The position numbers were made by a program, and so were the translations under genes. Shown here in pieces: positions 7,992-52,234 of a DNA stretch of 64,000 bases. The notes below the pieces were generated by a model. It made no database searches. It saw only the letters and a program-made list of their open reading frames with translations, and was not told the DNA's origin. Numbering within the stretch: position 1 is the stretch's first letter; the number at the start of each line of letters is the position of its first letter. This stretch comes from Persicobacter sp. CCB-QB2 (GTDB lineage: Bacteria > Bacteroidota > Bacteroidia > Cytophagales > Cyclobacteriaceae): positions 1,054,001-1,118,000 of the forward strand of contig NZ_LBGV01000001.1 of the NCBI RefSeq assembly GCF_001274635.1. The letters run 5' to 3'.

Positions 7992-8008
7992 CATTTGCTA
8001 ATTAGATT

Positions 8009-8043
8009 AAAAAAAGCGGAGGTTGATATCTTCCGCTTTTTTT
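8009..8043. terminator. bidirectional terminator between convergent genes
   Basis: AAAAAAGCGGA and TCCGCTTTTTT form a stem with A/T tracts on both sides. It lies between the ends of the GH15 gene (plus) and the ydcF-like gene (minus). Confidence 0.85.
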
Positions 8044-8063
8044 ATGCTCAGTACTACCGGTTA

Positions 8064-8840: not shown

Positions 8841-8880
8841 AAAAAACCACTAATAATTTTGGCAATATTAGTGGTTTCCT
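8839..8880 (-). terminator. terminator after the DUF3078 gene, abutting the ydcF-like start codon
   Basis: Arms AAACCACTAAT and ATTAGTGGTTT (8844-8854 and 8867-8877) form an 11-bp stem. On the minus strand this is followed by TTTTTT and then directly by the ATG of the next gene. Confidence 0.75.
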
Positions 8881-8897
8881 TTTGAAATTGGAAAATA

Positions 8898-9827: not shown

Positions 9828-9988
9828 AAGTAGAGGGATGGTTATTCTTAATATCGTAATAATAGTCAGTAGGTTTGTGATTTTATTTAGAAATTTAATT
9901 TCCAGATGTTATTATTTCACTGATAAAAACTTGTTTGTTGATATTTGGCTAACTTGTTCGTAAAACAAGCTTTTGTTGGAGTGCATTC

Positions 9989-11851: not shown

Positions 11852-11878
11852 GGCGGCAAGTCCGCGAAATAGAATCGA

Positions 11879-12388: not shown

Positions 12389-12390
12389 GT

Positions 12391-13491: not shown

Positions 13492-13494
13492 GAA

Positions 13495-13782
13495 ATGATT
13501 CCAATAAGTCATATATTAATTTTGTCTGCGATATTGTTCGCCATCGGGTTGATGATCATTCTGATGAAAAAAAATGCCATTGTGGTGTTGATGGGGGTGG
13601 AGTTAATCCTTAATGCTGCCAACCTGAATATGGTAGCTTTTTCTCAGTATGATCCAAGCCTCAAGGGGCAAATGTTCAGCATGTTTGTCATGGTGATTGC
13701 CGTGTCAGAAATTGCCATCGCTCTGGCCATTGTTTTTAAATTGTACCATCACTTGCGCACTGTCGATATTGATTTTAATTAA
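13495..13782 (+). CDS. nuoK: NADH-quinone oxidoreductase subunit K
   Basis: A 95-residue protein with three hydrophobic segments. It shows the two conserved glutamates of the family in GVELILNAANLN and AVSEIAIALAIV, which take part in proton translocation. Its stop codon overlaps the ATG of nuoL by one base (TAATG), which indicates translational coupling. Confidence 0.93.
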   Translation: MIPISHILILSAILFAIGLMIILMKKNAIVVLMGVELILNAANLNMVAFSQYDPSLKGQMFSMFVMVIAVSEIAIALAIVFKLYHHLRTVDIDFN

Positions 13783-15958
13783 TGGAAGCCATTCAAACTA
13801 TAGCACCCATTCACCCCGCGATTTATGCCGCTTTGCTGGCAACGGTTCTGCCATTGCTTTCTTTTTTGGCTATTGCTTTTTTTTCCAAAAGACTGGAAGA
13901 GACGATCAGCGATAAAATTGCGATCTCGGCCATCAGTGGCTCTTTGCTATTATCCATTTATATTTTCCTTCAGGTGTTTCCCAATAATACCTTAGAGGGA
14001 AACTGGCATTGGTTCCGTGTGGGGGATTACTCCCTGAATTTTGGAGTGCTGCTGGATCAGCTGTCGGTGGTGATGCTGTTGGTCGTGAGTTTAATTTCCC
14101 TTTTGGTCCATGTGTTTTCTATGAACTATATGAAGGGGGAAAAATATTATGCGCGTTATTATGGCTATCTGGGGCTATTCACTTTCAGTATGCTTGTGAT
14201 TCTGATAGCGGATAATTTGCTGCTCCTTTTTATGGGCTGGGAATTGGTAGGGCTTTCCTCTTACCTGTTGATTGGCTTTTGGTTTGAGCGGCCATTGGCG
14301 GCGAATGCCAATAGAAAAGCATTCCTGACCAACCGGGTAGGGGATATGGGATTTTTGCTGGGACTGATGATTCTTTGGGCTTACTTCCATACTTTAAGTT
14401 TTGCTGAATTGTCCCAAATTTTTTCCAATCCTGCAATCATTAATCAAATTCCTGAGGTATGGTTGATCGTAGCTGGGCTGGGAATTTTTATGGGTACGGT
14501 GGGCAAGTCTGCTCAATTTCCTTTACAAGTCTGGTTGCCGGATGCCATGCAGGGGCCAACGCCGGTCTCCGCATTAATCCATGCGGCAACCATGGTGGCG
14601 GCGGGAATTTTTCTTTTAGCAAGAGTATTTCCATTATTAGTTCCTGAAGTATTGATGGTAGTCGCGGTAATTGGAGCCATAACCGCCATTCAGGGAGCTT
14701 ATTCCGCCCTGAATCAATTTGATATCAAAAGAGTGTTGGCTTATTCCACCAGCTCCCAATTGGGCTATATGGTTTTAGGAATGGGCGTGGGCGCTTATGA
14801 AGCCTCGCTATTTCATTTGGTAACGCATGCCTTCTTCAAAGCCGGCTTATTTTTGGCCGTGGGTGCGGTGATTCACGCCATGCATCATTTCCAGTATCAG
14901 TGTAAAAAATTGTCCATTCCGGTTCATTTTGATCCGCAGGACATGCGACAGATGGGTGATTTAATGCGCCGTATGCCTTTGATCCATGCGGGATATGTCA
15001 TTTGCGCCGCAGCCCTGATCGGGCTTCCGTTTTTTTCCGGATTTATGTCAAAGGATGCGATTCTGATGGCTTCCTGGGAATGGGCTTCAAATATGTCAGC
15101 ACATGGGCATGTATGGGCCTGGGCCATTCCTTTCCTTGGTTTTGCTGCCGCAGTATTAACCGCCTTTTATATGGCGCGCCAATGGTATTTGGTTTTTTGG
15201 TCAAAGTCCAGGGTACTGAGCAAATGTCAGGCCGCTTGTCCTTGTTATGATAATCTGAAAGATCCTTCCTGGAAAAAAACGGTGCCGGTAGGCATTTTAG
15301 CTGTTATGTCGATCAGTTTTGTCTATGGACTCAATCCATTCGACGGGCATGCCACCTGGCTTTACCATGCTTTTGAAAGACCCGCGACTGTTTTACTGAG
15401 TGGATGGCAGTTGTCTGGTCGGGAGCATTTGACGTTCATTCCATTTTTGGCGGTGCTCTCTGCGCTTGGGGCATTTTGTATGCTTATAATAAGTATGGAC
15501 GCGATGAAAAAATCTGGGAAGATTATGTGCATCGCAGACCTCAAAGTAAATTGGGCTACTACTCGCTAAACAACTTTTATATGGATCGCTTTTACCGAAA
15601 GCATTTTATGATCCGAAGTTTGCGATGGGCTTACCGATTGCATTGGTTCGATCAAAAAATTATGAGTGGTATGGTGGATGGGGTTGCCGGTTTAACGGTG
15701 AGATCTTCTAAGGCATTTGCCTGGCTGGAATCTTTGAACAATAGCATCATCAATGGTTTAGGCGTTTTTGGGGTGATCCTCGCACAGGGCACTAAAATGT
15801 TTGATCGCTTTTTTGTAGATGGATTGGTGAAGGGTCTTGGTGAATTGAGTGAAGGCCTGGGCCGGGGCTTGGCGAATCTGCAAGGAAAGCAGGTGCAGTC
15901 CTATATTACCTATGCGGTGGTGTTTTTATTATTCATTGTTTTTTGGTTTTTTATATAA
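13782..15958 (+). pseudogene. nuoL: NADH-quinone oxidoreductase subunit L, frameshifted near the 3' end
   Basis: The first frame (13782-15569) has the antiporter-like NuoL core: MGWELVGLSSYLLIGFW, FLTNRVGDMGF, LPDAMQGPTPVSALIHAATM and LVTHAFFKAGLFL. From about 15470 the homology continues in another frame (YNKYGRDEKIWEDY to the final hydrophobic segment at 15958). One base is missing in the GGGG (15468-15471) or TTTT (15474-15477) run. With it restored, the protein has about 725 residues and keeps the C-terminal lateral helix region and last TM. A loss of function in the proton-pumping arm is unlikely to be tolerated, so a sequencing undercall is favoured. No nuoM or nuoN follows. Confidence 0.9.
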
Positions 15959-15963
15959 AGGAT

Positions 15964-16410
15964 ATGAACTACGAAATTCGCCCTATCGAACCTAATGATT
16001 TTCCTGCTTTGATTGAGTTGTTTCAAGGCTTGGCCGACTTTGAAAATGCTTCCGATAAAATGTTGAATACAGTGGCTACCATGGAAGCGGAGCAGGATTA
16101 TGTTCGTGGATTTGTTGTAGAATCCGAAGACGGAACGCTTGCCGGATATGCTACCTATTTTATTACTTATCATACCTGGGTGGGGAAATGCATGTACATG
16201 GACGATCTCTTTGTTAAAGATAGCCTTCGTGGAGCAGGCCTGGGGAGAAGTTTAATGGAGGCAGTCATAAATGTTTCCAAAGCCGAAGGCTGCAAAAGTT
16301 TGCGCTGGCAAGTGACTAAGGGCAATGCTCCGGCGGAAGCTTTCTATGAGAAATTAGGAGCTACCATTACCGATGCTCAGGCTAATTGTGATTTGAAATT
16401 AGAGCATTAA
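15964..16410 (+). CDS. GNAT family N-acetyltransferase, diamine acetyltransferase-like
   Basis: A 148-residue GNAT protein. IRPIEPNDFPALIELFQGLADFE opens the fold, and MYMDDLFVKDSLRGAGLGRSLM contains the acetyl-CoA binding motif (RGAGLG). The pattern, including YFITYHTW and WQVTKGNAPAEAFYEKLGA, resembles spermidine/diamine acetyltransferases. The substrate is not proven. The ATG lies 5 bp after the nuoL stop, so it may be read from the nuo transcript although it has no link to complex I. Confidence 0.85.
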   Translation: MNYEIRPIEPNDFPALIELFQGLADFENASDKMLNTVATMEAEQDYVRGFVVESEDGTLAGYATYFITYHTWVGKCMYMDDLFVKDSLRGAGLGRSLMEAVINVSKAEGCKSLRWQVTKGNAPAEAFYEKLGATITDAQANCDLKLEH

Positions 16411-16680
16411 ACCGCGATTTTTTTTGTATTTTCTAACTGAAACAGGGCTTTATGCTCTATGGTCATTTTGAGCATGTTTAAAAGCACACCACCCGGCTGC
16501 AAATTTCGAATTATTGGAAGCGATTTAGGATAATGTCTTAACAATAGCGATGCTATTCTCTCAATATAATCCTTTATTGCTTCTGCAATAATCAAATTTT
16601 CACTAAGAATTTTTACTTTTTAACACGATTTTAATCAGGGGGTGGGGTGACGAAAAGGGTTTCCGCAGTGATTGAGTTCT

Positions 16681-16917
16681 ATTAGCCATGATTATTCATG
16701 CATTAATCCTCCTTTAGCAGCAAGGCAGGAATGTAAAGGGTTTATTTTATTTCCAGTTTTTTCCCAGCGAAGTAAATAAGTGGGGAGAAAGCAAGCTTCC
16801 CTCAATTTAGATGGTTAATCAATCAGGAAGACCATCTCTAATGTATTGAAAAGGTGTTATTTCATTTGGGTGAAATATCTTTGAAAATGGCTGTTCAGGG
16901 ATGAAATTGAAGCTAAC
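16681..16917 (+). repeat. dispersed element copy A (degenerate ends)
   Basis: The core matches the other copies: CAGCAAGGCAGGAATG, AGTTTTTTCCCAGCGAAG, and GGGGAGAAAGCAAGC. The left end, TGATTATTCATGCATTAATCCTC, fits the common left end. The right end (near 16899-16917) is only weakly recognisable. It lies between two convergent GNAT genes. The rest of the gap at 16411-16680 shows no credible gene. Confidence 0.65.
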
Positions 16918-16934
16918 CTTGATTTATCAGACAA

Positions 16935-16960
16935 TAAAAAAGGCACAGTTGCCTGTACCT
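16935..16960 (-). terminator. terminator after the RimJ-like GNAT gene
   Basis: On the minus strand AGGTACAG and CTGTGCCT pair around GCAA (one G-U pair), followed by TTTTT. Confidence 0.75.
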
Positions 16961-16991
16961 TTAGGTTTGATAAAATACCTCTCCTTAATGA

Positions 16992-17552
16992 TTAATGCCG
17001 CTTGCCGTAGTCCTCTTTTTTTAATTCAAAAGGTTTAATGGTAGACTTCAATGAGGGCTTGGCCAAGGTGTTCATGCGCATGCCCATACTGTTCAGGAAA
17101 TTAACAGAGGCAATATCGCTGCCCTCTGCACCTGCTTTAATAACTTTTGCATTCATTTCTTCAAAGGCATAGCGGAACACCACTTGTCCGGCTTCTTTGG
17201 CATAGCCCTTTAGCCAGTAGGCAGGCTGTAGCGCACAGAAAAAATGATAAGTATCCGGGTCATCATTTGGGCGAAGACCGGTAATCCCCACAAATTCGCC
17301 GTCTTCTTTTTTCCTGATCAGTAGCGTCAGGCCTTCTTTACCTTCCGGGGTTTTGAATAAAGTATAATCCTTTAGGTGCTTCGTACTTTTTAAATGCTCC
17401 AAAGTTGGCATGGAAAGAAATCGAACCACCTTGCGGTCCTCTACCAAATCGGTAAAAGGTTCGTGATCTTTTTCTACGAATGGTCTCAGTTTCAATCTAT
17501 CAGTCTCAAAATGCTTTTTCCATTCCATATTATTGGTGTTTATTGTGCTCAA
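16992..17552 (-). CDS. GNAT family N-acetyltransferase (RimJ/RimL-like)
   Basis: A 186-residue protein. An in-frame ATG nine codons in gives MEWKKHFETDRLKLRPF, the usual start of this subgroup. It shows ETDRLKLRPFVEKDHEPF, EFVGITGLRP, WLKGYAKEAGQVVFRYAFEE (acetyl-CoA region) and SVNFLNSMGMRM. This matches the Acetyltransf_3 subgroup that includes ribosomal-protein acetyltransferases. The true substrate is unknown. A monocistronic gene with its own terminator. Confidence 0.82.
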   Translation of the reverse strand: MSTINTNNMEWKKHFETDRLKLRPFVEKDHEPFTDLVEDRKVVRFLSMPTLEHLKSTKHLKDYTLFKTPEGKEGLTLLIRKKEDGEFVGITGLRPNDDPDTYHFFCALQPAYWLKGYAKEAGQVVFRYAFEEMNAKVIKAGAEGSDIASVNFLNSMGMRMNTLAKPSLKSTIKPFELKKEDYGKRH

Positions 17553-17607
17553 AAGTTAAAAAATAAAAAACAAAAATGCGATTGCTTCAATTCTTATCAG
17601 GCCATCA

Positions 17608-17830
17608 TAAGCCGAATTATTCCTCCCTGGATTTATTGACGCTCCTCATGGTCTTTGTTATCAATTCATTACAGATGTTTGGCTTTGGATATTAATAGTC
17701 CAAATTTGAGTAAAACTGCTTTCCATGCGTTCCTCTGCTTTGCGGAAAAAAATAGCAATAGGGCTTTATTCCTTTATTTTTTCGGCCCTGCAGCCAATCC
17801 AGGGTTTTTAAGAGTGTGATTTAAAGCCAA
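17608..17830 (-). repeat. dispersed element copy B (minus orientation, possible extended or nested end)
   Basis: The + strand begins AAGCCGAATTATTCC (one terminal repeat). Inside it carries the reversed core: CAAATTTGAG, CTCTGCTTTGCGGAAAAA, TCCTTTATTTTTTCGG and CCTGCAGCCAATCC. A matching outer end, TGAATAATTCGGCTGAA, occurs only at 18078-18094. So either the element is interrupted by about 250 bp or a second remnant lies there. The rest of 17831-18150 shows nothing recognisable. Confidence 0.65.
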
Positions 17831-18077
17831 TATTTGCAGCCGGATGGTCTGCTTTTAAACACGCTCCATTGATGTGAAATTTGGATTTTGCCTAAAATGC
17901 CTTGAAATAAGGGGATTCATTGCTTATAGATAATATCAAAGAGATGATCTTACAACTGATTTTTTAGCGACTTACTTTTTTAAAAATTTCCTTGAATGTC
18001 TAGCACTTATTTTTTTGCCGGAAAGGCGATAACTTTCTGTCCGATAAGTGGAAATAAATCAAAATAAAGGGCATGCT

Positions 18078-18094
18078 TGAATAATTCGGCTGAA
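18078..18094. repeat. isolated terminal repeat of the dispersed element
   Basis: TGAATAATTCGGCTGAA matches the 17-bp terminal repeat TGAATAATTCGGGTTAA at 15 of 17 positions, without an adjacent core. It is possibly the far end of copy B. Confidence 0.5.
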
Positions 18095-18153
18095 TTGTCG
18101 TAGGTAAAATACAATTTGCTGCCTGTGATCATTTATCCCCTTCAAAAAAAGCT

Positions 18154-18161
18154 TATCTTTG
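18154..18161 (+). promoter_or_regulatory. -7 element of metG
   Basis: TATCTTTG fits TAnnTTTG and lies 20 bp before the ATG at 18182. This makes the in-frame upstream extension to 18116 unlikely to be translated. Confidence 0.45.
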
Positions 18162-18181
18162 GGGCGAATTTTAAATACGCT

Positions 18182-20227
18182 ATGACAAAGCAATCCAAAT
18201 ATACCATTACGGCGGCTTTACCGTACGCCAACGGACCAGTGCACATCGGGCACTTAGCAGGGGTTTATGTTCCTGCGGATATTTTTGTACGTTATCTGCG
18301 CTCAAAAGGTGACGATGTAGTTTTCGTTTGTGGAAGTGATGAGCACGGCGTGCCGATCACGATTCGTGCCAAAAAAGAAGGCGTAACGCCACAGCAGGTA
18401 GTAGATAAGTATCATGGAATCATTAAGAATGCTTTCAAAGATTTCGGAATTTCCTTCGATATTTACTCTCGTACTTCCAGTAAAACGCATGCAGAAACGG
18501 CTTCGGAATTTTTTAAAAAAATGTACGAGGAAGGGAAATTTGTAGAGCAAACTTCCGAACAGTACTACGACGAGAAAAACAATCAGTTTCTGGCCGACCG
18601 CTACATCATGGGTACTTGCCCGAACTGTGGTAATCCGGATGCCTATGGTGATCAGTGTGAAAAGTGTGGATCCACTTTGTCTCCAAGAGAATTGGGCGAC
18701 CCTCGCTCAACTATTTCCGGTGAGAAACCTGTTTTGAAAGAAACCAAACACTGGTATTTGCCATTGGATCAATATGAGCCATGGTTGAAGGAGTGGATTT
18801 TGGAGCAAAATAAAGACTGGAAATCCAATGTTTACGGGCAATGTAAGTCCTGGTTGGATGCTGGTTTGATGCCTCGCGCGGTAACCCGTGATTTGGATTG
18901 GGGTGTTCCTGTACCGGTAGAAGGTGCTGAAGGAAAAGTGTTGTACGTTTGGTTCGATGCCCCAATCGGTTATATTTCGGCGACTAAAGACTGGGCGACT
19001 GAAAATAACCAAAACTGGGAAGAGTACTGGAAAGGCGATAACTCCAAATTAGTACACTTCATTGGTAAGGATAATATCGTATTTCACTGTATTATCTTCC
19101 CATCCATGCTGAAGGCGGACGGAACTTATAATATTCCGGAAAATGTACCGGCGAATGAGTTCCTGAACCTGGAGGGCGATAAAATTTCTACCTCCAGAAA
19201 CTGGGCAGTTTGGTTGCACGAATATTTGGAAGATCTTCCGAATAAGCAGGATGTATTGCGTTACACTTTGTGTGCAAATATGCCCGAGACCAAGGACAAT
19301 GATTTCACCTGGAAAGATTTCCAGACGAGAAATAATTCCGAATTGGTGGCTATCCTTGGGAACTTTGTGAACCGTGCGGTAGTGTTGACCAATAAATATT
19401 ATGAGGGGAAAATTCCGGCACGTGGAACTTTAGAGGCGATCGATAAGGAAACCATCGCGACGATGGAAGCTATTCCTGGGCGTGTGGGTGCTTCTTTAGA
19501 GAAATATAAATTCCGCGAAGCATTGCAGGCGATGATGGAATTGGCGCGTTTGGGGAATAAATATCTGGCAGATACCGAGCCATGGAAATTGCAGAAAGAA
19601 AATCCGGCTCGCGTTGAAACCATTATGAACATTGCCTTGCAGATTTGCGCAAATCTGTCCATCGTGGCGGAGCCATTCTTACCATTTACTGCGCAGAAAT
19701 TGGTGGAGATGTTGAACATTGATACCTTAAAGTGGGCAGATGCGGGTAGATTAGACATCTTAGCCGATGGCCACCAAATTAATAAGCAACAGTTATTATT
19801 CGAGAAATTGGAAGATCAGGTAATCGACGCACAAGTGCAGAAGCTGGAAGATACGAAGAAAGCGAATGAGGCGGCAAATGCGCCGGTGGAGCCTTCTAAG
19901 GATTTGTGTACCTTCGATGATTTCATGAATTTGGACATCCGCGTAGGGCATATCCTGGAAGCGGAGAAATTGAAGAAATCTAAAAAACTATTGAAGCTGA
20001 AAGTGGATGTAGGTTTTGAAGAACGCACGATCTTGAGCGGTATTGCTCAACATTTTTCACCGGAAGAGGTGGTGGGTAAAAAAGTAGCCGTATTGGTGAA
20101 CCTGGCCCCACGTAAGATGATGGGGATTGAGTCGGAAGGAATGGTCTTAATGGCGGAGACCAAAGACGGATCTCTGAGATTTATGGAGCCTTCCGAGGCG
20201 GCAGAAGCCGGAAACATGATCAGTTAA
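18182..20227 (+). CDS. metG: methionine--tRNA ligase
   Basis: A 681-residue cytoplasmic class I synthetase that charges tRNA-Met. It has [20 protein letters not shown] with the HIGH signature near residue 20, a zinc knuckle [18 protein letters not shown], and KISTS as the KMSKS equivalent. An anticodon-binding domain follows, and a C-terminal tRNA-binding (EMAP/Trbp111-like) domain begins near residue 570 ([17 protein letters not shown]). The longer frame from 18116 is rejected because a -7 promoter element lies inside it. Ends with a strong terminator. Confidence 0.97.
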
Positions 20228-20306: not shown

Positions 20307-20529
20307 TTAACCCGAATTATTCACCGCTAAATTAAGTAATTCACCTTAACTGATTTATTATCAACTCAGTAGACTCATTTTACTGATTTTTTCATAGGCC
20401 AAATTTGGGCAAGCTTGCTTTCTCCTCATTCATCTGCTTCGTTGGAAAAAACTCGAAATAGGAGACTATTCCTTCATTTTTCCCGCCTTGCAGCTAAAAG
20501 AGGATTGAAGCATGAATAATCCGGGTTAA
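20307..20529 (-). repeat. dispersed element copy C (reference copy, 223 bp)
   Basis: It is bounded by TTAACCCGAATTATTCA (20307-20323) and TGAATAATCCGGGTTAA (20513-20529), which are near-perfect inverted repeats. Inside are the palindromes CCAAATTTGG and GCAAGCTTGC and the conserved blocks CTTTCTCCTCATTCATCTGC and TTTTTCCCGCCTTGCAGC. There is no open frame of note. It starts 25 bp after the metG terminator. The best-preserved copy in the window. Confidence 0.88.
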
Positions 20530-33403: not shown

Positions 33404-33624
33404 TTAAACCGGATTATGCACACTTAATTTTTTCTTTAGCTGCAGAACGGGATAAATAAAGGAGTTTTTCTGTTTCGAGTTTTTTCCAAAGAAGCAGGTG
33501 AATGAGGAGAAAGCAAACTTGCCCAAATTTGGTTTATCCATAAATGAAAAAGAACGGTCTTATCGGCCTGAAAACAAATGATTTAAATCCGGATAATGAG
33601 TTTTGTGGTGAATAATTCGGTTTA
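33404..33624 (+). repeat. dispersed element copy D (221 bp)
   Basis: The left end TTAAACCGGATTATGCA (33404-33420) and right end TGAATAATTCGGTTTA (33609-33624) are inverted repeats. The core has TTTAGCTGCAGAACGGGA, CGAGTTTTTTCCAAAGAAGC and GAATGAGGAGAAAGCAAAC. It lies in the gap between gldC and tas (33243-33945). The remainder, 33625-33880, shows nothing recognisable. Confidence 0.82.
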
Positions 33625-43350: not shown

Positions 43351-44199
43351 ATGAAGGATGCAAAGCAAAAGAAAAGAGAACAACTCAGTGGCATCCTGAC
43401 GGCAATACTGACCATCGCTTTGGTGGTGTGTTTTTATTTTATTTCCGTCTGGCAGGCACCGGATCCACCTTTGCCAGTGTATGGCTTAGAACTTAGCCTG
43501 GGCATGGATGAAAGTGGGAGTGGAGAACCTGTACAGGAAATTCAGGCGCAGGCCCCAACGCCCAATAACCCGGAGCCTATTCAACCCGAGCCATTGCCGG
43601 AAGTAGAAGAAGTGCCCCAAGAAGTAATGGAGGAAGTTCCTGAGCAGACGGAGCCGGTAGAGGAAACGGTGAAAACGCCGGTAGAAGATATACAAGAGGA
43701 ACCGTCCTGGGTGGAAGAAAAGCCGGAAGAGGTCGTGAGTGAGCCAGAAGAACCGAAAAAGGAAAAATTGCCGGCTTATGAATTCCCTTCGGATAAAAAG
43801 ACGGAAGATCAAAGCAATGCTTCAGCGGCTTCCTCGGGTGATGATGATCATGCCACCGGAACCAAAGGAAAAGAAGAGGGAAAGATTGACGAAAGAGGGA
43901 TTTATTCCGGAAGCTTTGGTGCTAAGGGTGCGAGTCTGGACATGAAAGGCTGGGCCTGGGATGCTGCGCCTAGACCTTCGGATAATTCCAATGAAAGTGG
44001 GAAGATTGTCTATCAGATCCGCATTGATGAGGATGGGGAGATTCAGGAAGTGCGAAGATTAGAATCCACGGTGCGCCCGGAAGTAGAGGCCCGTTATCGA
44101 AGAGCCGTCGAGCAGTTAACCTTTAGCCGTTCGGCGGATAATCTGCGTCCGGCACCCTTTACCACAGGTAAGATCACCTTTATCATTAACGCCAATTAA
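43351..44199 (+). CDS. energy transducer TonB-like protein
   Basis: A 282-residue protein with one N-terminal transmembrane segment (LTAILTIALVVCFYFISVW). A long Pro/Glu-rich spacer follows (about 50-150). The C-terminal domain (GKIVYQIRIDEDGEIQEV to TGKITFIINAN) has the beta-alpha-beta shape of TonB. It would carry the energy from ExbBD across the periplasm to outer-membrane receptors. It closes the exbB-exbD-tonB operon, with a terminator right behind. Confidence 0.85.
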   Translation: MKDAKQKKREQLSGILTAILTIALVVCFYFISVWQAPDPPLPVYGLELSLGMDESGSGEPVQEIQAQAPTPNNPEPIQPEPLPEVEEVPQEVMEEVPEQTEPVEETVKTPVEDIQEEPSWVEEKPEEVVSEPEEPKKEKLPAYEFPSDKKTEDQSNASAASSGDDDHATGTKGKEEGKIDERGIYSGSFGAKGASLDMKGWAWDAAPRPSDNSNESGKIVYQIRIDEDGEIQEVRRLESTVRPEVEARYRRAVEQLTFSRSADNLRPAPFTTGKITFIINAN

Positions 44200-44212
44200 G
44201 ATTTTGAATAAG

Positions 44213-44241
44213 AAAGCCGCTGGAGACAGCGGTTTTTTTTG
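44213..44241 (+). terminator. terminator of the exbB-exbD-tonB operon
   Basis: CCGCTG pairs with CAGCGG around GAGA, followed by TTTTTTTT. Confidence 0.9.
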
Positions 44242-44249
44242 TTTGGGAT

Positions 44250-44491
44250 TTAACCTGAATTATACATACCTGAACCGGACTATTCATGATTATATCCTCG
44301 ATAAGCTGGAAGGCGGGAAAAATGAAGGAACTTTTCCATTACGAGTTTTTTCCAAAAAAGAAGATGAATGTGGATATAGTAAGCTTTCCCAAATTTGGGT
44401 AATTAAAAAATCAGTCTAAATGAATGTACTTCACTGATAATTAGTTGATTAAAGTAAGTTTCTGAATCTGACGGTGAATAATTCGGGTTAA
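44250..44491 (+). repeat. dispersed element copy E1 (242 bp)
   Basis: It starts TTAACCTGAATTATACA, 9 bp after the operon terminator, and ends TGAATAATTCGGGTTAA. The left end is doubled: a second partial copy, ACCGGACTATTCATG, lies about 22 bp inside. The core has AAGGCGGGAAAAATGAAGGA, CGAGTTTTTTCC and AAATTTGGG. Confidence 0.85.
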
Positions 44492-44725
44492 TTCGAATTA
44501 TACATACCTGAGCCGGACTATTCATGATTATATCCTCGATTAGCTGGAAGGCGGGAAAAATGAAGGAACTTTTCCATTACGAGTTTTTTCCAAGAAAGCA
44601 GATGAATGAGGAGAAAGTAAGCTTTTCCAAATTCGGGCTATTAAAAACCAAAAAATATCGACTATAATACATTGATAGTAAGTGGTTTGAGTTCTGTCAA
44701 TGCATCAGTTGGTAATAATCCTAGA
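44488..44725 (+). repeat. dispersed element copy E2, directly following E1
   Basis: It begins TTAATTCGAATTATACATACC and shares the TTAA at 44488-44491 with the end of E1. The core is nearly identical to E1 including the doubled left end. The right end is degenerate (GGTAATAATCCTAG near 44711-44724). Immediately downstream is the toxin-antitoxin promoter region. Confidence 0.78.
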
Positions 44726-44770
44726 TGAGGGGATGTAATATTGGGGATTAAACAACTGACTTAAAATATG

Positions 44771-44802
44771 TTACGCAATTCGTAATAAATTATTTATTTT
44801 GT
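44771..44802 (+). promoter_or_regulatory. possible operator and -7 region of the toxin-antitoxin pair
   Basis: TTACG-CAATT-CGTAA (44771-44785) is a perfect 5-bp inverted repeat with a 5-bp spacer. It lies just before a TATTTTG -7-like box (44796-44802) upstream of the toxin gene, where an antitoxin HTH protein commonly binds. Binding is inferred. Confidence 0.4.
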
Positions 44803-44813
44803 AACTTTCTGTA

Positions 44814-45116
44814 ATGAGAAGGGTTCATATTATTAGCAGGCCGGTATTAAAGGCTTTTGTAGTGAAATATCCGGACAGCAAATCGGCTTTGGATTCCTGG
44901 TGGCAAATCAGTTCTCATTCTTATTGGCAAAACTGGTCGGAATTGAAATCAGTTTTTCCTCAGGCTGATAAGGTGGGGGATAAAGTGATTTTTAATATTG
45001 GAAGAGCGTATCGGCTTATTTGCAGATTAAAGTTCGGAACCAATAGAACCACCTTGTTTGTGTTGTGGTTGGGTCACCATAATGCATATGATAAATTGGA
45101 TATTAAAAAATTATGA
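44814..45116 (+). CDS. higB: HigB-type type II toxin
   Basis: A 100-residue protein with the pattern of HigB mRNA interferases: AFVVKYPDSKSALDSWW, KSVFPQADKVGDKVIFNIG, YRLICRLKF and LFVLWLGHHNAYDKLD. Such toxins cleave mRNA at the ribosome. The stop overlaps the antitoxin start by 4 bp (ATGA), with toxin first as in other HigBA loci. Confidence 0.85.
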   Translation: MRRVHIISRPVLKAFVVKYPDSKSALDSWWQISSHSYWQNWSELKSVFPQADKVGDKVIFNIGRAYRLICRLKFGTNRTTLFVLWLGHHNAYDKLDIKKL

Positions 45117-45475
45117 TGGATTACGAACAATATCAGGCTGCATTAGAGAAGGTTGATCAGTTTATGAAATGTCAGGAACTGGATTTTATGGAGGAGACTT
45201 TGATGGATAGTTTAGTAGACAAAATTGAGGCTTATGAGGAAGTGCATTATCCTCAAATTCCTGCAAGTCCGCAGCAGGTGATGCGTTTAATCATGGAAGA
45301 GCGGGGATTGAAACAAAAAGATTTAATTCCTTTATTTGGGTCAGCCCCAAGAGTGTCGGAATTTTTCTCCGGAAAATTACCTACGGTGGAAACCATTGTA
45401 AGCCTGTCAAAAGCCTTTAATTTATCTTTGGAGATATTTTTAAATGAGCACACCGTAAAGGTGAGGGAGCTGTAA
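45113..45475 (+). CDS. higA: HigA-type HTH antitoxin
   Basis: A 120-residue protein with a C-terminal helix-turn-helix of the Xre/HigA kind: MRLIMEERGLKQKDLIPLFG, RVSEFFSGKLPTVETIVSLS and AFNLSLEIFL. It should neutralise HigB and repress the operon, possibly at the inverted repeat at 44771-44785. A second ATG at 45116 would serve equally as start. It is translationally coupled to the toxin gene. Confidence 0.85.
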   Translation: MMDYEQYQAALEKVDQFMKCQELDFMEETLMDSLVDKIEAYEEVHYPQIPASPQQVMRLIMEERGLKQKDLIPLFGSAPRVSEFFSGKLPTVETIVSLSKAFNLSLEIFLNEHTVKVREL

Positions 45476-45548
45476 AGTTTTTTCAGGAGCTTATTTTATG
45501 GTCGCTCTATTTTGCTTTAGATTTTTAATAACATCCGATGCCCTTATT

Positions 45549-45580
45549 ATTGATGCTGCTGGAAATATGGCTTAACTTTG
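45549..45580 (+). promoter_or_regulatory. promoter of the LamG-SARP-like regulator gene
   Basis: ATTG (45549-45552), 20 bp, then TAACTTTG (45573-45580), an exact TAnnTTTG. The ATG at 45602 is 22 bp downstream. Confidence 0.5.
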
Positions 45581-45601
45581 TGTTTTTGAAAGAATTTGAT
45601 C

Positions 45602-47581
45602 ATGCCCAAAGGATTCCATTTTTCTTTTTTGACCATGCTGCTGTTACTTCCTGTGGGGAAGGGTTTTGCTAGCGAAGCAATTCTTAATTTTTCACATCCT
45701 TTGGCAGATACCACCTTGCTTTGGGCTGACCGGCATATTCATCTGAAAAAAGAGGGAAGTCAGCTCTTCCCCTATACCCTTGAACAGGCCCGAACGGGAC
45801 ACCTGACCTTTCTGGATTTGGATACCCTTTCTAAAAATGCAAAAGCTTATATTTTAAGAACTTGGAGGAAATCCGGCAAGCCACCCGTTTTTATAAAGGG
45901 TAAAGATGCCCAATCCCTGGTTAGCTGGGTAAATTCACAAGAACGTGCGCAAGTTAATTTACAGTCAGAAGACGGAGTTTTGCCCGAGCACATTCTTTGG
46001 GAGGGGGCACCGGATTTAATAACGGGTGCGAGGTGGACTTACCCATGGGGAAATAAACGTACCTTAAAAGTTAGCCCCCAGAGTCCCTCCTGGTCCTTTA
46101 GTCCTGAAAATTTACTTTTATTAAAAAGTCGCCCCGGTTTAAAAGTGATTTCGGCTTTTAGGAAATCCTTAGAGGAAGATTTAATAGTGAAATGGTCCAT
46201 TAATAACCGTTTTAGTGCCCTTGGCGCAACTACCAATCATCATCAATGGCGCCCGCAACATATTGAGGAAAGCAAGGAGGGCTGGCATTTCAATGGGAAA
46301 AATGCCAGCGTGCTGGTGAATGATCCACCGATTGATGATGCCAAGGCTCCCTTTTCGGTGTTGATCACCTTCCGGCCGGAAGAAATTAAGGCGGATCGTA
46401 TGAGTCTGTTAAACCAGGGAAGGGTATTTGACATCAAGTTGATTGATAATCATTTGGTATTCAATCATCATTATGATTACAAATTCGAAAAGGTGGCGCT
46501 AGTGCCTTATCAATGGTATGAATTAGTGGTGGTATTTTTTCCCGGTAAAAAGTTTGAGTACTACCTCAATGGTGAACTTCTTTTTGAAAGGGATTTAGTT
46601 GCACATCAATATGTGGGGCAGGCCTGGGTAGTCGGAAGTAATATTTGGGGCGAGTATTTTAAAGGGACAATTCAACATTTTCTGGTGTGGGACAGGCCAC
46701 TCAGCAAAGAGGAAGTAAGCCGCTTATATGAATTTACCAACAGTCCTTTATTTCGACCCTATATTTATTGGGGGCTGATGGTCTTGGGTTTCTTTTTAAT
46801 ATTGGCGTTTTATTTATATAAAAAACCCAAGAAAATGCCGGTGTTTAAGCAGCATCGTCCTGGTCCTGTTTCAAAGTGGCAATTGATCGGGGGCTTTCAA
46901 ATATTGGATGCCGCCGGAACATTACAATCTCACCATTTTTCTGCTTTGCAAAGAGAGTTTTTAATCAGTCTGTTTTTATGTCAATTACAAAATAAACCAT
47001 TGACAACTAAGCGGATGAATCAGATATTCTGGCCTGATAAATCCACAGATCAGGCTAAGAATTCCCGAAGTTCCCTTTTGTCACGCCTCCGAAAGGAAAT
47101 AAAGGCTATAGGGATGGGAAGTATTGAACAACGCGATGGCCATTGGTTTTTTGATGTCAGTGAAAATTTTCAGGTTGACGCGCAGGAGCTGGAAAATTTG
47201 TTAAATACGGGGAATTGGGAGCGAAAAGATGCGAGGGTCCTTTTGCAGTCCCTTGCCAATGGAAATTTAGTGGAGGAAGATGCTACAGACTTTATTCATC
47301 AGGAGGTCCTTCATATAGAGCGAAAATGGTGGGCTAAACTTCAGGCACAGTTGGAACATATTCCTTCTCCTTTACGGAGCCTTGCCTTTGATGCCCTACT
47401 GCGTTTAGATCCTTTAAATGAAGAGGTCTTTGAAAAGAAAACAGCCTTTCTCTTAATGGAAGGAGAATTTCATTTGGCCGAAAAGGGATACCAAACGTTT
47501 GTAGCGAACTATTTCCAACAGTTAGAAATGGAATTTCCGATAAAGTTTAGCGATTACGTAAATCGGTTTGCTAAGCGTTAG
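45602..47581 (+). CDS. membrane-tethered LamG / SARP-like transcription regulator
   Basis: A 659-residue protein from the ATG at 45602 (TTG at 45596 also in frame). It has a signal peptide (1-22), then an unassigned region (about 25-220). A LamG/concanavalin-like jelly roll follows (about 227-378: GWHFNGKNASVLV, WYELVVVFFPGKKFEYYLNG, GTIQHFLVWDRPLS). One transmembrane helix (387-407) is followed by basic KKPKK. The C-terminus is a winged helix (430-525: LQREFLISLFLCQ, MNQIFWPDKSTDQAKNSRSS, LLSRLRKEI) plus a BTAD-like helical domain (about 530-655: FDALLRLDPLNEEVFEKK). The last two domains are the SARP-regulator pattern. A periplasmic glycan-binding sensor controlling DNA directly is inferred. 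The GH3 gene follows after about 120 bp. Confidence 0.82.
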   Translation: MPKGFHFSFLTMLLLLPVGKGFASEAILNFSHPLADTTLLWADRHIHLKKEGSQLFPYTLEQARTGHLTFLDLDTLSKNAKAYILRTWRKSGKPPVFIKGKDAQSLVSWVNSQERAQVNLQSEDGVLPEHILWEGAPDLITGARWTYPWGNKRTLKVSPQSPSWSFSPENLLLLKSRPGLKVISAFRKSLEEDLIVKWSINNRFSALGATTNHHQWRPQHIEESKEGWHFNGKNASVLVNDPPIDDAKAPFSVLITFRPEEIKADRMSLLNQGRVFDIKLIDNHLVFNHHYDYKFEKVALVPYQWYELVVVFFPGKKFEYYLNGELLFERDLVAHQYVGQAWVVGSNIWGEYFKGTIQHFLVWDRPLSKEEVSRLYEFTNSPLFRPYIYWGLMVLGFFLILAFYLYKKPKKMPVFKQHRPGPVSKWQLIGGFQILDAAGTLQSHHFSALQREFLISLFLCQLQNKPLTTKRMNQIFWPDKSTDQAKNSRSSLLSRLRKEIKAIGMGSIEQRDGHWFFDVSENFQVDAQELENLLNTGNWERKDARVLLQSLANGNLVEEDATDFIHQEVLHIERKWWAKLQAQLEHIPSPLRSLAFDALLRLDPLNEEVFEKKTAFLLMEGEFHLAEKGYQTFVANYFQQLEMEFPIKFSDYVNRFAKR

Positions 47582-47701
47582 TCTTGTTTTTATTGTGTTT
47601 TTTTGATCATTTTTTAAACACAGTACACCCTCGCTACACGCTCCAATACCCATTATTTCCCATTTTCGAGCATTATGTTTTTTGATTTAAAATATGCTGA
47701 A

Positions 47702-50353
47702 ATGAAAAAATGGTTGCTCTTATTTTTAATGTGGATACCCGCTTTTTTAGGGAAGGCGCAGGACTTTCAAAAACCGGATATTCCGTTTTACAATCATCAA
47801 CTGAGTGTTGAGGAACGGCTGGATGATATTTCCAATCGCCTGACCAATTCTGAAAAAGGTCATATGATCACCCTTTGGAATAAGGGGGTGCCTCGCCTGG
47901 GCTTAAAAAGCTTTATGCCTGGAGAAGCTTTACATGGGCTTGCGGCACCAAGACATAATGCTGCTACTGTTTTTCCGCAATCCATAGGACTGGCGGCAAG
48001 CTGGAATCCGGATCTTATGAAGGCCATTGGGGATGCCGTTTCAGACGAGGCCCGGGCGCAGTATCACAATGGGCCGGTGATTAAGAAAGGGAATGAAAAA
48101 GGGAAAAAAGGTCCTTTATTTTTTTGGTCGCCGGTAATTAATATTGGTCGGGATCCACGCTGGGGGCGTAACCAGGAAAATTATGGAGAGGATCCGCTTT
48201 TAACCAGTCAATTTGTAAGTCATTATTTAAAGGGCCTCCAGGGGGACGATCCAAATTATTTGAAAGTAGCGGCAGGTGCCAAGCATTTTGTTGCGAATAA
48301 TGAAGAACATAATCGCTTTAATGGGAATGCTGATGTCTCCGAGAAACAATTGCGTGAATATTATTTCCCTGCTTATAAGGCAGCGGTTCAGGAAGGGGAT
48401 GCCAAAATTATCATGACCGCATATAATGCGCTGAACGGTTTGCCTTGTGTGGAAAATTCCTGGTTGGTGAATGACGTGCTGCGTAAAGAGTGGGGCTTTG
48501 ATGGTTTTGTGATTGGAGATTATGGCTCCGAACTCATGTTGACGCAAGGGTGGAAGGAAAGAGGTTTCCAGGGGCATGAAAAATATGCTGATAATGTGGC
48601 CTCAGCTGCAGCCGTAATGAATGCGCAGACTTTGGATATGGGGAATACCCGTTTATTCCGAAAAGAGTTGATGCAGGCGATTGAGGAAGGAAAGGTAGAT
48701 GAAAAAGAACTGGACCGTGCTTTTCGAAATGTGATGCGGGTAGGTTTACGTTTGGGAATGTTTGATCCGGAGGAATTATCTCCCTGGAAAGACTTGCCTT
48801 TCGAAACCATGTGCGCTGATGCACATAAAGCTTTGGCATTGAAAGCTGCTGAGGAAAGCCTGGTGCTGTTGCAGAATAATCCGGTGGATGGACAGCCCAT
48901 TTTGCCCTTTCAAAAGGAAAAAATAAAAAAAGTGGCCATTGTGGGTCCAAATGCAGACGCCCTGAATTTTGGAACATACAGTGGTGTAGCGAAAGATCCC
49001 GTGAGTGTGTTAAATGGTTTACGTCAGTACCTAGGAGAAGACATTGAGGTGGTATATGTTCCCTGGAAGAAAAAAGACCAGGAATTGGTTGATATCCCAA
49101 TGGACCGCATTATTTCATTGGATAATCAGGGGATGGGTGTTTGGAAAGCCCGCTATTATAATAATAAGCAGGCGCATGGAAAGCCTATTGCCCAAAATAC
49201 CGTAGCGAATATTGATCAGCATTGGAATGAAAAAGCCCCCCATGCAAAATTGAAAGGCCAGAATAGATATTCAGTGGTTTATTCCTCTACTATAGCCCCA
49301 ACCAAATCAGGTTTATACACCCTGGGTATTGAGTCCGCGGGAGCGAACGTAACCGTGAAAGTGAATGGAGCCCCATTGATCAGAACGCACGGGGATAAAG
49401 AGAATGTAGAGCATCTGGCTAAGGCGATCCGATTTGAGGAAGGACAAAACTATGAGTTGGAAGTGTTGTATATGAAAAATACCAATGCTCAGCTTAATCA
49501 ATTGCGTTTCGGCTGGCAGTTGCCCGTGGATGAAATGGCATATGAAGGAGGAGAAATGGAGCTAGCCGCTAATGTGGATGCCGTAATTGCGGTCATGGGA
49601 TTAAGTGTGGAATATGAAAGAGAAAGTATAGACCGCTCTTTTGAGGGTTTACCAAGAGAGCAAGTCGCTTTCCTGAAGGAGTTATTGCAGGTAAATAAAA
49701 ATACGGCAGTCGTTTTGCAAAATGGTAGTTCTATTGAAAGCGAATGGCTTAAGCAGCATGCTCCGGCTATTTTAGAAGCCTGGTATCCGGGAGAACAGGG
49801 TGGTCTGGCCGTAGCTAAGGCACTTTTTGGAGCGGTGAACCCTGGGGGTAAATTACCGATGACCTTTGTGAAAAGCTGGAATGATCTTCCGGGACAAGAC
49901 GATTATGATATCGCGAAGGGAAGAACTTATTTGTATTTTGAGAAGGAGCCGCTTTTTGCCTTTGGCCATGGCTTGAGTTATACCGATTTTGAATTTTCCC
50001 CAATGGAAATCAATGCGGAATCTTTCGCATTAGAAGATGAAATCGTGGTGAGTTTCTCTGTCCGCAATACGGGTGACCAAAGTGGTGATGAGGTGGCACA
50101 GCTTTATGTCAAAGAGCTATTTGAGCGAAATGAAAAGCCCATTCAAAGATTAAAGGCTTTCCAGAGGGTGCATTTAGGACAAGGTGAGGACGCCAATGTT
50201 CAATTGAGCATTCCGGTAAAGGATTTAGCTTATTGGGATGAAAATGATAAGCAATGGAAGGTGGGGAATGGCCCAATTGAACTGCGTCTTGGAAGTGCTT
50301 CCGATAAAATTCATTTGACTAAGACCGTGAATATTGTAGGAGGGGCCTTGTAA
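47702..50353 (+). CDS. glycoside hydrolase family 3 beta-glucosidase with PA14 domain
   Basis: An 883-residue secreted enzyme with a signal peptide (cleavage after LGKA). The GH3 N-terminal barrel contains SPVINIGRDPRWGRNQE, KHFVANNEE and GFVIGDYGSE, whose Asp273 is the expected nucleophile. A PA14 domain (about 475-615) is inserted in the second domain. The acid/base Glu lies in EYERESIDR near residue 641. A fibronectin-like C-terminus follows (YTDFEF, VRNTGDQSGDEVAQLYV). It should release glucose or xylose from beta-glycosides. It lies just downstream of the LamG regulator, its likely controller. The ATG at 47675 is in frame but leaves a poorer signal. Confidence 0.94.
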   Translation: MKKWLLLFLMWIPAFLGKAQDFQKPDIPFYNHQLSVEERLDDISNRLTNSEKGHMITLWNKGVPRLGLKSFMPGEALHGLAAPRHNAATVFPQSIGLAASWNPDLMKAIGDAVSDEARAQYHNGPVIKKGNEKGKKGPLFFWSPVINIGRDPRWGRNQENYGEDPLLTSQFVSHYLKGLQGDDPNYLKVAAGAKHFVANNEEHNRFNGNADVSEKQLREYYFPAYKAAVQEGDAKIIMTAYNALNGLPCVENSWLVNDVLRKEWGFDGFVIGDYGSELMLTQGWKERGFQGHEKYADNVASAAAVMNAQTLDMGNTRLFRKELMQAIEEGKVDEKELDRAFRNVMRVGLRLGMFDPEELSPWKDLPFETMCADAHKALALKAAEESLVLLQNNPVDGQPILPFQKEKIKKVAIVGPNADALNFGTYSGVAKDPVSVLNGLRQYLGEDIEVVYVPWKKKDQELVDIPMDRIISLDNQGMGVWKARYYNNKQAHGKPIAQNTVANIDQHWNEKAPHAKLKGQNRYSVVYSSTIAPTKSGLYTLGIESAGANVTVKVNGAPLIRTHGDKENVEHLAKAIRFEEGQNYELEVLYMKNTNAQLNQLRFGWQLPVDEMAYEGGEMELAANVDAVIAVMGLSVEYERESIDRSFEGLPREQVAFLKELLQVNKNTAVVLQNGSSIESEWLKQHAPAILEAWYPGEQGGLAVAKALFGAVNPGGKLPMTFVKSWNDLPGQDDYDIAKGRTYLYFEKEPLFAFGHGLSYTDFEFSPMEINAESFALEDEIVVSFSVRNTGDQSGDEVAQLYVKELFERNEKPIQRLKAFQRVHLGQGEDANVQLSIPVKDLAYWDENDKQWKVGNGPIELRLGSASDKIHLTKTVNIVGGAL

Positions 50354-50426
50354 GCTTTCCTAATACAACATTATCTGCCACTTTCCTCTATTCAAAAGGA
50401 GCGGAAGGCGAGCAGGTGATCAAACA

Positions 50427-50466
50427 AAAATAAGCCGGGGATTCAGTTTTCCGGCTTTATTTTTTA
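50427..50466 (+). terminator. terminator of the GH3 gene
   Basis: AAAATAAGCCGG pairs with CCGGCTTTATTTT, followed by T-run. Repeat copy F begins inside its T-run. Confidence 0.88.
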
Positions 50467-50686
50467 ACCCGGAATATTCATGCCTAAATCCCCGTTAAGC
50501 TGCACGGCGGAAAAAATGAAGGAATAGCCCCCATTTTGATTGTTTTTCAACGAAGTAGATGAATATGGAGAAGGCTAGCTCGCCCCAATTTAGGCTATTA
50601 AAAATGAAAGAAAATTACTCCTAATAACCTGGTGGCAAGCTATTGGTCATTAGCTAGTGGATTTAGCGGTGAATAATTCGGGTTTA
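50464..50686 (+). repeat. dispersed element copy F (223 bp), reaching into the methyltransferase gene
   Basis: The left end TTAACCCGGAATATTCA (50464-50480) and right end TGAATAATTCGGGTTTA (50670-50686) are inverted repeats. The core has AAGCTGCACGGCGGAAAA, TTCAACGAAGTAGATGAATA and CAATTTAGGC. Its last 37 bp (50650-50686) are the 3' end of the methyltransferase gene on the minus strand. Confidence 0.85.
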
Positions 50687-51510
50687 ATCGCAGAATATAT
50701 GCCATAAGCCCAGAGGTCCTGTTCTAATGCTTTATGTTGGGCAATCACACTTTCAATCCGGCTTTTTGGTACCCGCATTTTTTTTGGAAACAGCCATTGA
50801 AGAGGAAAAGTCCATTGGCCCATTTTTCCGAAAAAATAGAGTCTTTTGGAAGAGGGAAGGATGTGAGGGGTAAAATCTTCCCAGGAAAGTGCTCTGAAAT
50901 CCCAATTTTTTAATTGGTGGCTGAAATCTTCCACTTTGCATAATTCCTGTATATGGTAACCCGTAAACCATTGTTTTAATAGGGCTTCCCGGCCATCGGT
51001 TTTACCCCAATAATCAGAAATCACCATTCGCCCGCCGGGGCAGAGTACTCTGGCGGCTTCCCTCAGAAATTTGGCTTTGTCCTGAATGTGAAAGGCACTT
51101 TCCAAAGCCAGATAATGCGTAAAATGCTGATCCGGAAAAGCTAAATGATGGTAATCCCCTAATTCAAACCGGCATAAATGGGCCACCTCATGTTCAAGGG
51201 CTAATTGTTTAGCTTTTTCAATTTGCCGGGGAGAAAGGGTAATACCGGTGATACGGCAACCATATTTTTGAGCCAGCCAAACGGCCGTGCCGCCATAGCC
51301 GCAGCCTGCGTCCAGAAGGTGAGCACTAGAATTTAGTTGCAGACGCTCCGCAATTTTTGTCCTCAGATTGATTATGGCTTGACGGATAGTTTGCGTGTCC
51401 GCCTCCCAATAACCATAATTCATGGACCATTCCTTCCCCAATCCCCAAACCAATTTATACAGCCATTCAGATTGATCATAGGCAGTGGCTATCTCCTGCT
51501 TAGGATCCAT
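50650..51510 (-). CDS. SAM-dependent methyltransferase, tocopherol/cyclopropane-type
   Basis: A 286-residue class I methyltransferase from the ATG at 51510. An extension to 51579 is in frame but would overlap the upstream gene further. It has motif I LLDAGCGYGGTAV (about 65-77), GCRITGITLSP, and the later GGRMVISDYWG. It resembles gamma-tocopherol or small-molecule C-methyltransferases. It overlaps the upstream gene by 11 bp, so coupled translation is likely. The last 11 residues (KPELFTAKSTS) and the stop come from repeat element F. The original C-terminus may have been lost. Confidence 0.82.
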   Translation of the reverse strand: MDPKQEIATAYDQSEWLYKLVWGLGKEWSMNYGYWEADTQTIRQAIINLRTKIAERLQLNSSAHLLDAGCGYGGTAVWLAQKYGCRITGITLSPRQIEKAKQLALEHEVAHLCRFELGDYHHLAFPDQHFTHYLALESAFHIQDKAKFLREAARVLCPGGRMVISDYWGKTDGREALLKQWFTGYHIQELCKVEDFSHQLKNWDFRALSWEDFTPHILPSSKRLYFFGKMGQWTFPLQWLFPKKMRVPKSRIESVIAQHKALEQDLWAYGIYSAIKPELFTAKSTS

Positions 51511-52234
51511 GCTTTTGAATTTTTTGGGCCATTTGTTTTCTGGCCTCCTGATAGTCCATTTCCCAATGGGCTTGCCCATTCCAATCCCAAAGTGGAACCG
51601 GTATCATACCATGGGCAAAAAGCTGCCGCATCAAACTTTCCTCATTTTCGGGATCCCTTTGATAGGAGAATGGATTCCGAAATCCTTGTTGTGGTTGGAG
51701 CTGGTGGTATTTTTGATCATTGATTTTTATCAATTCCAGCATTTCTTTTCCACGATTGACCATCGCTTTCAGAAATTCCGGATGAAAAGGCGGGATTTGC
51801 TTTCTTTCCTGCGGATTTTTGGCCACCCATTTTGCCCAGTCAAAACCATAGGTGAAATCATGAACAAATTGAAAATTGATGGTAGTGTTACCTCCAAAAA
51901 TCCCCATTAATTGTACCAATAACTCATCCATTTTCCGGAGAAAATGAGTGGGGTGATCAGATGCAAATGTCATTTTCACGATTTCTCTGACCATCAGATC
52001 ATAATCGTAAAAGATATTTTGGGGGTAATGTTGATACTGACTTTGAATAAGGTCCCGGCAAAGCAGGGCAAGCTCCTGGAAATGGTGAAAATCGGGAAAT
52101 TCCAACGCTGTTTTTTCAGCTAATGCAGCAAAGGAAGTGGCGGTATTTTTTCCCGGATCTACCGATTTAAATTCAATGCCCTGATGGGAGATCCATTGAT
52201 CAATGGGTGTAAAAAGTTGTTGGGGTTCTCGCAT
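51500..52234 (-). CDS. hypothetical protein between prenyltransferase and methyltransferase genes
   Basis: A 244-residue protein with no signal peptide and no family I can name. It is helical and rich in aromatic residues and His, with HFQELALLCRDLIQ, NIFYDYDLMVREIVKM, FVHDFTYGFDWAKWVAKN and PLWDWNGQAHW. Its place, 28 bp after a UbiA gene and overlapping a methyltransferase gene, suggests a role in the same pathway, for example handling the prenylated product. That is inference only. Confidence 0.7.
   Translation of the reverse strand: MREPQQLFTPIDQWISHQGIEFKSVDPGKNTATSFAALAEKTALEFPDFHHFQELALLCRDLIQSQYQHYPQNIFYDYDLMVREIVKMTFASDHPTHFLRKMDELLVQLMGIFGGNTTINFQFVHDFTYGFDWAKWVAKNPQERKQIPPFHPEFLKAMVNRGKEMLELIKINDQKYHQLQPQQGFRNPFSYQRDPENEESLMRQLFAHGMIPVPLWDWNGQAHWEMDYQEARKQMAQKIQKHGS

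Follow-up and report, generated by a model that had tools for sequence, protein, structure and literature searches.

A stretch of 64,000 nucleotides from Persicobacter sp. CCB-QB2, here called the window, holds a gene for a protein that joins a LamG domain, one membrane helix and a C-terminal half related to the SARP regulators, and this gene is followed by one for a glycosidase of family GH3. SARPs are known as activators of antibiotic genes. The question raised by this locus is whether such a protein can act as a transcription factor from within the membrane, what it responds to, which gene it serves and how far the arrangement departs from regulators already described. The answer developed below, which we consider reasonably probable, is a one-component activator in the inner membrane that switches on the GH3 gene in response to a periplasmic ligand, probably a glycan.

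Domain layout of the regulator and identity of its C-terminal half

The regulator gene (P0001; 45602..47581, plus strand) is open from the ATG at 45602 to 47581 and encodes 659 amino acids; the program-called reading frame begins with a TTG 6 bp upstream of this ATG. A signal peptide read by eye (about residues 1-24, 45602..45673, with cleavage near FAS/EA) precedes an N-terminal extracytoplasmic domain delimited by alignments with relatives (about residues 25-230, 45674..46291) and a LamG domain (PF13385, residues 231-373, 46292..46720) that Pfam recognizes with E 4.8e-12 and 46.7 bits, above the gathering cut-off of 27.6. The only helix in the hydropathy scan follows at about residues 383-402 (46748..46807), and the protein ends in a SARP module of winged helix and BTAD-like helical domain (46865..47578), assigned by profile, fold and DNA-contact residues. 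The helix is followed by the stretch KKPKK, and by the positive-inside rule the C-terminus should be located in the cytoplasm.

The LamG domain lies above the Pfam cut-off in all six relatives scanned, and a LamG profile built here matches 11 of 11 LamG-type proteins, seven of which had contributed to the profile. The original prediction had named LamG, helix and SARP part correctly and had overlooked the separate N-terminal domain at about residues 25-230. This domain is common to the relatives and is shorter in P0001 than in relatives of 765-792 amino acids. Pfam matches on it and on its counterparts in relatives all stayed under cut-off, and the PDB gave no significant match to either of two profiles made from it (A2 and A6), the best E being 0.08 and 0.25. 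A ZNRF_3_ecto match on the N-terminus of the regulator (E 0.0027) is under cut-off and recurs in none of the eight members of A6, a set that does not include the query. A PI-PLC-like fold (PF00388, E 0.045 in one relative) was considered and dropped, since just one of eight profile members matched and the PDB profile searches were null. A search of the regulator's own genome at E 10 or better returned a single match, the regulator itself, and hence no second copy.

As judged from profile and fold comparisons, winged helix and BTAD domain together make the C-terminal half a SARP module. Taken as a single sequence, its 238 residues found no match in Pfam, NCBIfam or the PDB sequences. When the SARP halves of ten relatives were combined into a profile (A3), a search of the PDB matched AfsR (8hvr) with E 5e-4 over positions 33-221, that is with the helix-turn-helix included and on through the BTAD domain, and EmbR weakly (E 0.66). 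Ahead of AfsR, A3 has its top match in the designed TPR protein 7obi (E 1.8e-7), with the alignment confined to the BTAD part. This counts against the assignment, and helical-repeat likeness therefore explains part of the SARP signal. The Pfam BTAD model is likewise weak, being matched by three of the ten A3 members with a best E of 0.029 and the query not among them. An AlphaFold model of the C-terminal half (pLDDT 51.8) shows three strands, three helices, two strands and then helical repeats, the order expected when a winged helix precedes helical repeats; the low pLDDT of the full-length model (34.5) counts against our reading. With the weak C-terminal model as query, Foldseek placed three AfsR chains on top (E 1.2e-3, 2.0e-3 and 5.4e-3, TM about 0.3, 236-239 columns) and EmbR at ranks five and six, with no match at E 0.001 or better. 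Among the 50 matches listed by VIA-align, which mostly cover residues 104-238 and of which many are TPR-like, AfsR is absent; we weigh this list neither in favour of the assignment nor against it.

Residues that touch DNA in AfsR provide a further line of evidence. Seven of the twelve contacts taken from PMC10936776 are identical in P0001 (S46, W74, Q81, S91, R92, R94 and K95), and the other five are changed (Q48, P79, S80, R87 and T88), which again speaks against the preferred reading. The recognition helix corresponds to about residues 483-502 of the regulator and carries the motif SRLRK. In the clade to which the regulator belongs (see below), all 39 members have W74, position R94 is always R or K, and position R92 is always K, R or H. 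It might be argued from the changed contacts, from the designed TPR protein at the head of the profile matches and from the TPR proteins that fill the fold lists that the protein has decayed or been repurposed, its SARP-like part being a TPR-like scaffold that does not bind DNA and its position next to the GH3 gene a matter of chance. We regard this as highly unlikely, as the frame is intact across all 659 residues and both the SRLRK stretch and W477 have been retained. A membrane-anchored DNA-binding regulator, on the other hand, is a very probable assignment: profile and fold matches point to the DNA-binding wing for which a structural check had been proposed, weak as both models are, and the LamG-membrane-SARP order in one chain, claimed in the original prediction, is borne out by the Pfam LamG match, the hydropathy helix, the A3 match to AfsR and the AfsR chains on top of the Foldseek list.

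The adjacent GH3 gene and the block that contains it

The GH3 glycosidase gene (47675..50353, plus strand) starts 93 bp downstream of the regulator gene at 47675 or, at the ATG at 47702, 120 bp downstream, in agreement with the distance of about 120 bp first given for it. The latter is the likely start and gives the better signal peptide as read by eye. Pfam identifies Glyco_hydro_3 (E 2e-41) and Glyco_hydro_3_C (E 2.4e-46) together with Fn3-like and PA14 domains. Among NCBIfam models, xylosidase_Xyl3A fits best and, with 640 bits, stays below its cut-off of 1250. In 59 genomes near that of the window (own included), matches to this GH3 protein at E 1e-150 or better occur in five others, all with 37-40% identity. 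A putative promoter region extends over 47582..47701 (plus strand). Direct repeats at 11 or 22 bp are characteristic of SARP target promoters. Pairs of 11-bp direct repeats in the putative GH3 promoter are not above chance, which counts against the preferred reading: at an offset of 11, up to 9 of 11 positions match, and at least 8 are reached by 6% of all 120-base stretches of the window and by 9% of the AT-rich ones. A TACAC repeat 11 bp apart, suggested by eye as the SARP site of the GH3 promoter, was rejected for the same reason. Scans for promoters and terminators gave sites no commoner than in shuffled sequences, and Rfam found no match over 44150-50750.

Regulator and GH3 gene are part of a block (44200..50649) that two genomes of the same genus (G001 and G002) lack at this place. 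In both, only about 200 bp at most separate tonB from a methyltransferase gene downstream of it (50650-51579 in the window), and the corresponding 9-kb stretches are free of matches to HigB, HigA, the regulator and GH3. The block also includes plus-strand genes for a HigB-type toxin and an HTH antitoxin (44814..45475; HigB_toxin E 5.3e-18, HTH_3 E 1.3e-5). Repeat comparison revealed two copies of an interspersed repeat on its left side (44275..44409 and 44513..44647, plus strand) and a third copy in the same orientation on its right side (50469..50604). The block could be gained or lost through recombination between such copies. Its GC content is 41.6%, compared to about 43% in the surroundings. 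It is likely that regulator and GH3 gene were gained or lost together, and their joint presence or absence at this place argues against an adjacency by chance. We consider it fairly likely that the regulator controls the adjacent GH3 gene. The repeat itself is about 150-220 bp long, has further copies in the window at 20307-20524 and 33436-33545, and its left copies have at least 46 further matches in the genome, with 40 of 361 candidates scored.

Relatives of the regulator and the genes that surround them

Among the 59 genomes mentioned above, 16 have a match to the regulator at E 1e-3; in the same-genus genome G001, it lies on contig C6 from position 127123. Full-length LamG-type relatives are encoded at six loci (L033, with 31% identity, and L034, L035, L036, L037 and L038). 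The N-terminal-domain profile added two genomes with two copies each, and four of 390 genomes of the order sample (own included) matched it. At 1e-6, 27 of the 395 phylum genomes searched, that of the window among them, contain a match to the SARP half, and Bacteroides fragilis S82 carries a relative of this half (L031; L032 is a near copy and the two are counted as one). Through the SARP half, two relatives, L031 among them, were found in a collection of genome contigs and one record in a plasmid collection. Viral contigs yielded no relative of the regulator.

In a maximum-likelihood tree of 52 SARP halves, a branch with 100/100 support separates 39 of them, P0001 included, from the other 13. 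A helix is predicted before the SARP part in 36 of the 39 clade members, the exceptions being L043, L096_9 and L097. Most members bear a Kelch head instead of LamG: 11 of the 39 are LamG-type, and in 25 of the other 28 the ectodomain matches that of the Kelch-positive proteins L031 or L040, with Pfam Kelch present in 21 of 26 proteins scanned. The window protein pairs with L033 (93/85). As the most divergent row of the tree, with the longest end branch (2.43), it lends some support to the decay discussed above and counts against the preferred reading, as does its position outside a supported group (99/98) of five LamG-type proteins encoded upstream of 3-keto-disaccharide hydrolase genes. Three of the 13 SARP-like proteins outside the clade also have a predicted helix, and in two of these (L070 and L084) the order is reversed, with the SARP part N-terminal and the helix behind it. 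Within the clade, two tandem genes for proteins of 853 and 646 amino acids share a few bases at their junction in each of two genomes (L100 and L101) and perhaps encode a paired regulator. The nearest relative of the window protein is present in two copies in one genome (L039, 1-400, and L033, 199-2250), 91% identical over 134 residues. The near-orthologous locus pairs are L089/L090, L091/L092 and L100/L101.

The part between helix and winged helix bears on how a signal might leave the membrane. This linker comprises about 20 residues in P0001 and is poorly conserved and of variable length among the relatives, as may be expected if ligand or envelope stress led to a cut near the helix and the released, soluble SARP half acted as the activator. 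In fact, the clade member L096_9 has 259 amino acids and no predicted helix, so a SARP half lacking the membrane part does exist in the clade. Signalling by proteolysis nevertheless appears unlikely to us: no protease family was found among the neighbours scanned, which are part of all neighbours, and no cleavage motif is recognizable by eye in the linker.

Genes for glycan metabolism recur next to the relatives. Of 12 LamG-type loci, nine adjoin such genes (GH3, GH109, GFO/IDH/MocA or 3-keto-disaccharide hydrolase), and in eight of the 11 complete loci, the GH3 gene of the window included, they follow directly downstream on the same strand. These are GFO/IDH/MocA and two 3-keto-disaccharide hydrolases (L034), a GH109-type gene (L035), a 3-keto-disaccharide hydrolase (L036), GFO and two hydrolases (L037), DUF6807, ThuA and two GFO genes (L038), and, at both L089 and L090, a gene for 247 amino acids (glucosamine-isomerase-like in L089) followed by GFO and two hydrolases. 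The twelfth locus (L039), a fragment at a contig end, is divergent from a set of GFO, 3-keto-hydrolase and GFO genes. Against these stand L033, the nearest full relative, where no glycan gene was seen on a stretch whose contig begins 198 bp upstream, and L091 and L092, where there is none among the neighbours examined. Five of 11 LamG-type genes have a 3-keto-disaccharide hydrolase gene on their own strand no more than 5 kb downstream, compared to an expectation of 0.06, with four regulator ends rounded in this count. Both this expectation and that for GH92 given below presuppose evenly placed genes and use rounded genome sizes.

For Kelch-type relatives, SusC/D-like, GH92 or GH38 genes are present at 12 of 24 distinct annotated loci, GH38 being seen in the Pfam scan of one neighbour (L052) only. 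The 24 do not count L104, which the tree groups with the 13 sequences outside the clade. All 12 positive loci are among the 15 that stem from the window's family, order or class or from Bacteroides; in three other families (f54, f36 and f50), none of nine Kelch-type loci has SusC/D or GH92 nearby, the scope of that count, and this speaks against a general association. In genomes that possess GH92, nine of 20 Kelch-type genes have it within 10 kb where 0.44 would be expected. This figure contains one doubled match and one doubled miss, G001 and G002 being near-orthologous, and includes L011, L023, L026 and L030, which are outside the 24 annotated loci. On plasmid pPP5 of Persicobacter psychrovividus (NZ_AP025297.1), a gene annotated as 'hypothetical protein' (WP_338399197.1) is followed by genes for GH92, a TonB-dependent receptor and SusD. 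This protein has no Pfam match, and its ectodomain matches that of Kelch-positive L040 at 1.6e-40. A link with glycan genes in relatives had been suspected from the start, and the survey of neighbours shows that homologues often lie near them, as the counts of nine of 12 and 12 of 24 loci illustrate.

Two neighbouring observations deserve mention in their own right. At L041, a Kelch-type membrane SARP (7216-9900) is encoded one gene away from a type I polyketide synthase of 2426 amino acids (11250-18530), which echoes the use of SARPs in Streptomyces. At L047 (8376-10091), a gene between two DUF2961 genes encodes a protein of 571 amino acids (L028) in which two LamG domains and a membrane helix are combined with an AraC HTH at the C-terminus, a one-component LamG-membrane-AraC layout.

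LamG domains bind many types of ligand, not always sugars, and a glycan as the ligand of the LamG domain studied here is a tentative assignment with a chance close to even. This versatility would also suit a protein that senses the state of the envelope, the cell's own glycans or a protein partner and not a food glycan, with the GH3 enzyme serving the envelope or its turnover; the lack of any transporter-size reading frame in the block apart from regulator and GH3 fits as well. Such a role seems improbable given that the relatives often adjoin catabolic genes for GH92, SusC/D, 3-keto-disaccharide hydrolases and GFO/IDH/MocA proteins.

Proposed mode of action and comparison with known regulators

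In the reading that we prefer, a one-component activator of the GH3 gene, the N-terminal domain and LamG would lie in the periplasm and recognize a ligand there, with an oligosaccharide or glycoconjugate the most likely candidate. The single helix would relay the change across the membrane, probably through dimerization or rearrangement of a dimer, and the cytoplasmic winged helix and BTAD pair could then occupy direct repeats in the promoter in the manner of an AfsR dimer. By aiding the binding of RNA polymerase, this SARP dimer would switch on the GH3 gene 93-120 bp downstream. SARPs characteristically activate transcription through contact with region 4 of the sigma factor. It is also possible, and we put it forward with reserve, that membrane-anchored SARPs form an undescribed class of glycan-locus regulators in Bacteroidota, gut Bacteroides included, with exchangeable heads matched to the substrate: Kelch at alpha-mannan/N-glycan loci with GH92/GH38, and LamG at 3-keto-glycoside and GH3/GH109 loci. 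If this is true, a SARP has been turned into a transmembrane sugar sensor and the range of SARPs extends to transmembrane signalling. An extra regulator type, found in B. fragilis next to GH92 and SusC/D, would then explain loci that lack the three known types, and a compact sensor made from one gene would be available for engineering.

The output half resembles AfsR/SARP from Streptomyces (8hvr, 8k60), with winged helix and BTAD across the whole C-terminal module. AfsR, however, has its SARP domain at the N-terminus, ahead of NOD and TPR (PMC10936776), whereas in the regulator it is C-terminal and comes after signal peptide, ectodomain and helix. The main text of that AfsR study has no word that starts with 'membrane', 'transmembrane' or 'bacteroid' (PMC10936776).

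Three main types of regulators are described for polysaccharide loci in two sources, namely SusR-like proteins, hybrid two-component systems (HTCS) and ECF sigma/anti-sigma pairs (PMC3878776, PMC13088901). SusR from Bacteroides is a membrane protein of glycan loci whose sensor binds maltose in the periplasm and whose C-terminal DNA-binding domain is cytoplasmic (PMC3878776). As far as its predicted topology goes, the regulator fits this membrane-spanning one-component layout. It is set apart by description, as the DNA-binding domain of SusR is reported to lack significant similarity to those of other known factors (PMC3878776); the A3 profile matched none of 48 reading frames in three GH97 regions of B. 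fragilis, where no SusR was recognized. HTCS, too, are single chains that sense carbohydrates in the periplasm and contact DNA in the cytoplasm (PMC3878776), but P0001 has no Pfam match to histidine kinase, receiver or AraC domains at E 1 or better.

A close likeness also exists to the Kelch-headed membrane SARPs (B. fragilis L031; WP_338399197.1), which share the helix-SARP half and the clade and are often encoded next to glycan genes; they differ by a Kelch propeller as ectodomain in place of LamG. Activators of the ToxR/CadC type have their cytoplasmic winged helix N-terminally, before the membrane helix. The regulator does not match them, as its winged helix is C-terminal, after ectodomain and helix.

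The original prediction had called the layout undescribed, and this holds in part. In the open-access full texts covered by our literature search, no description was found of a SARP module that serves as the output of a LamG or Kelch head. SusR, a described one-component glycan regulator of the membrane, already unites sensing in the periplasm with DNA binding in the cytoplasm (PMC3878776), and the general layout is therefore not new. What is new is the SARP output combined with LamG and Kelch heads on a plan for which SusR is the precedent.
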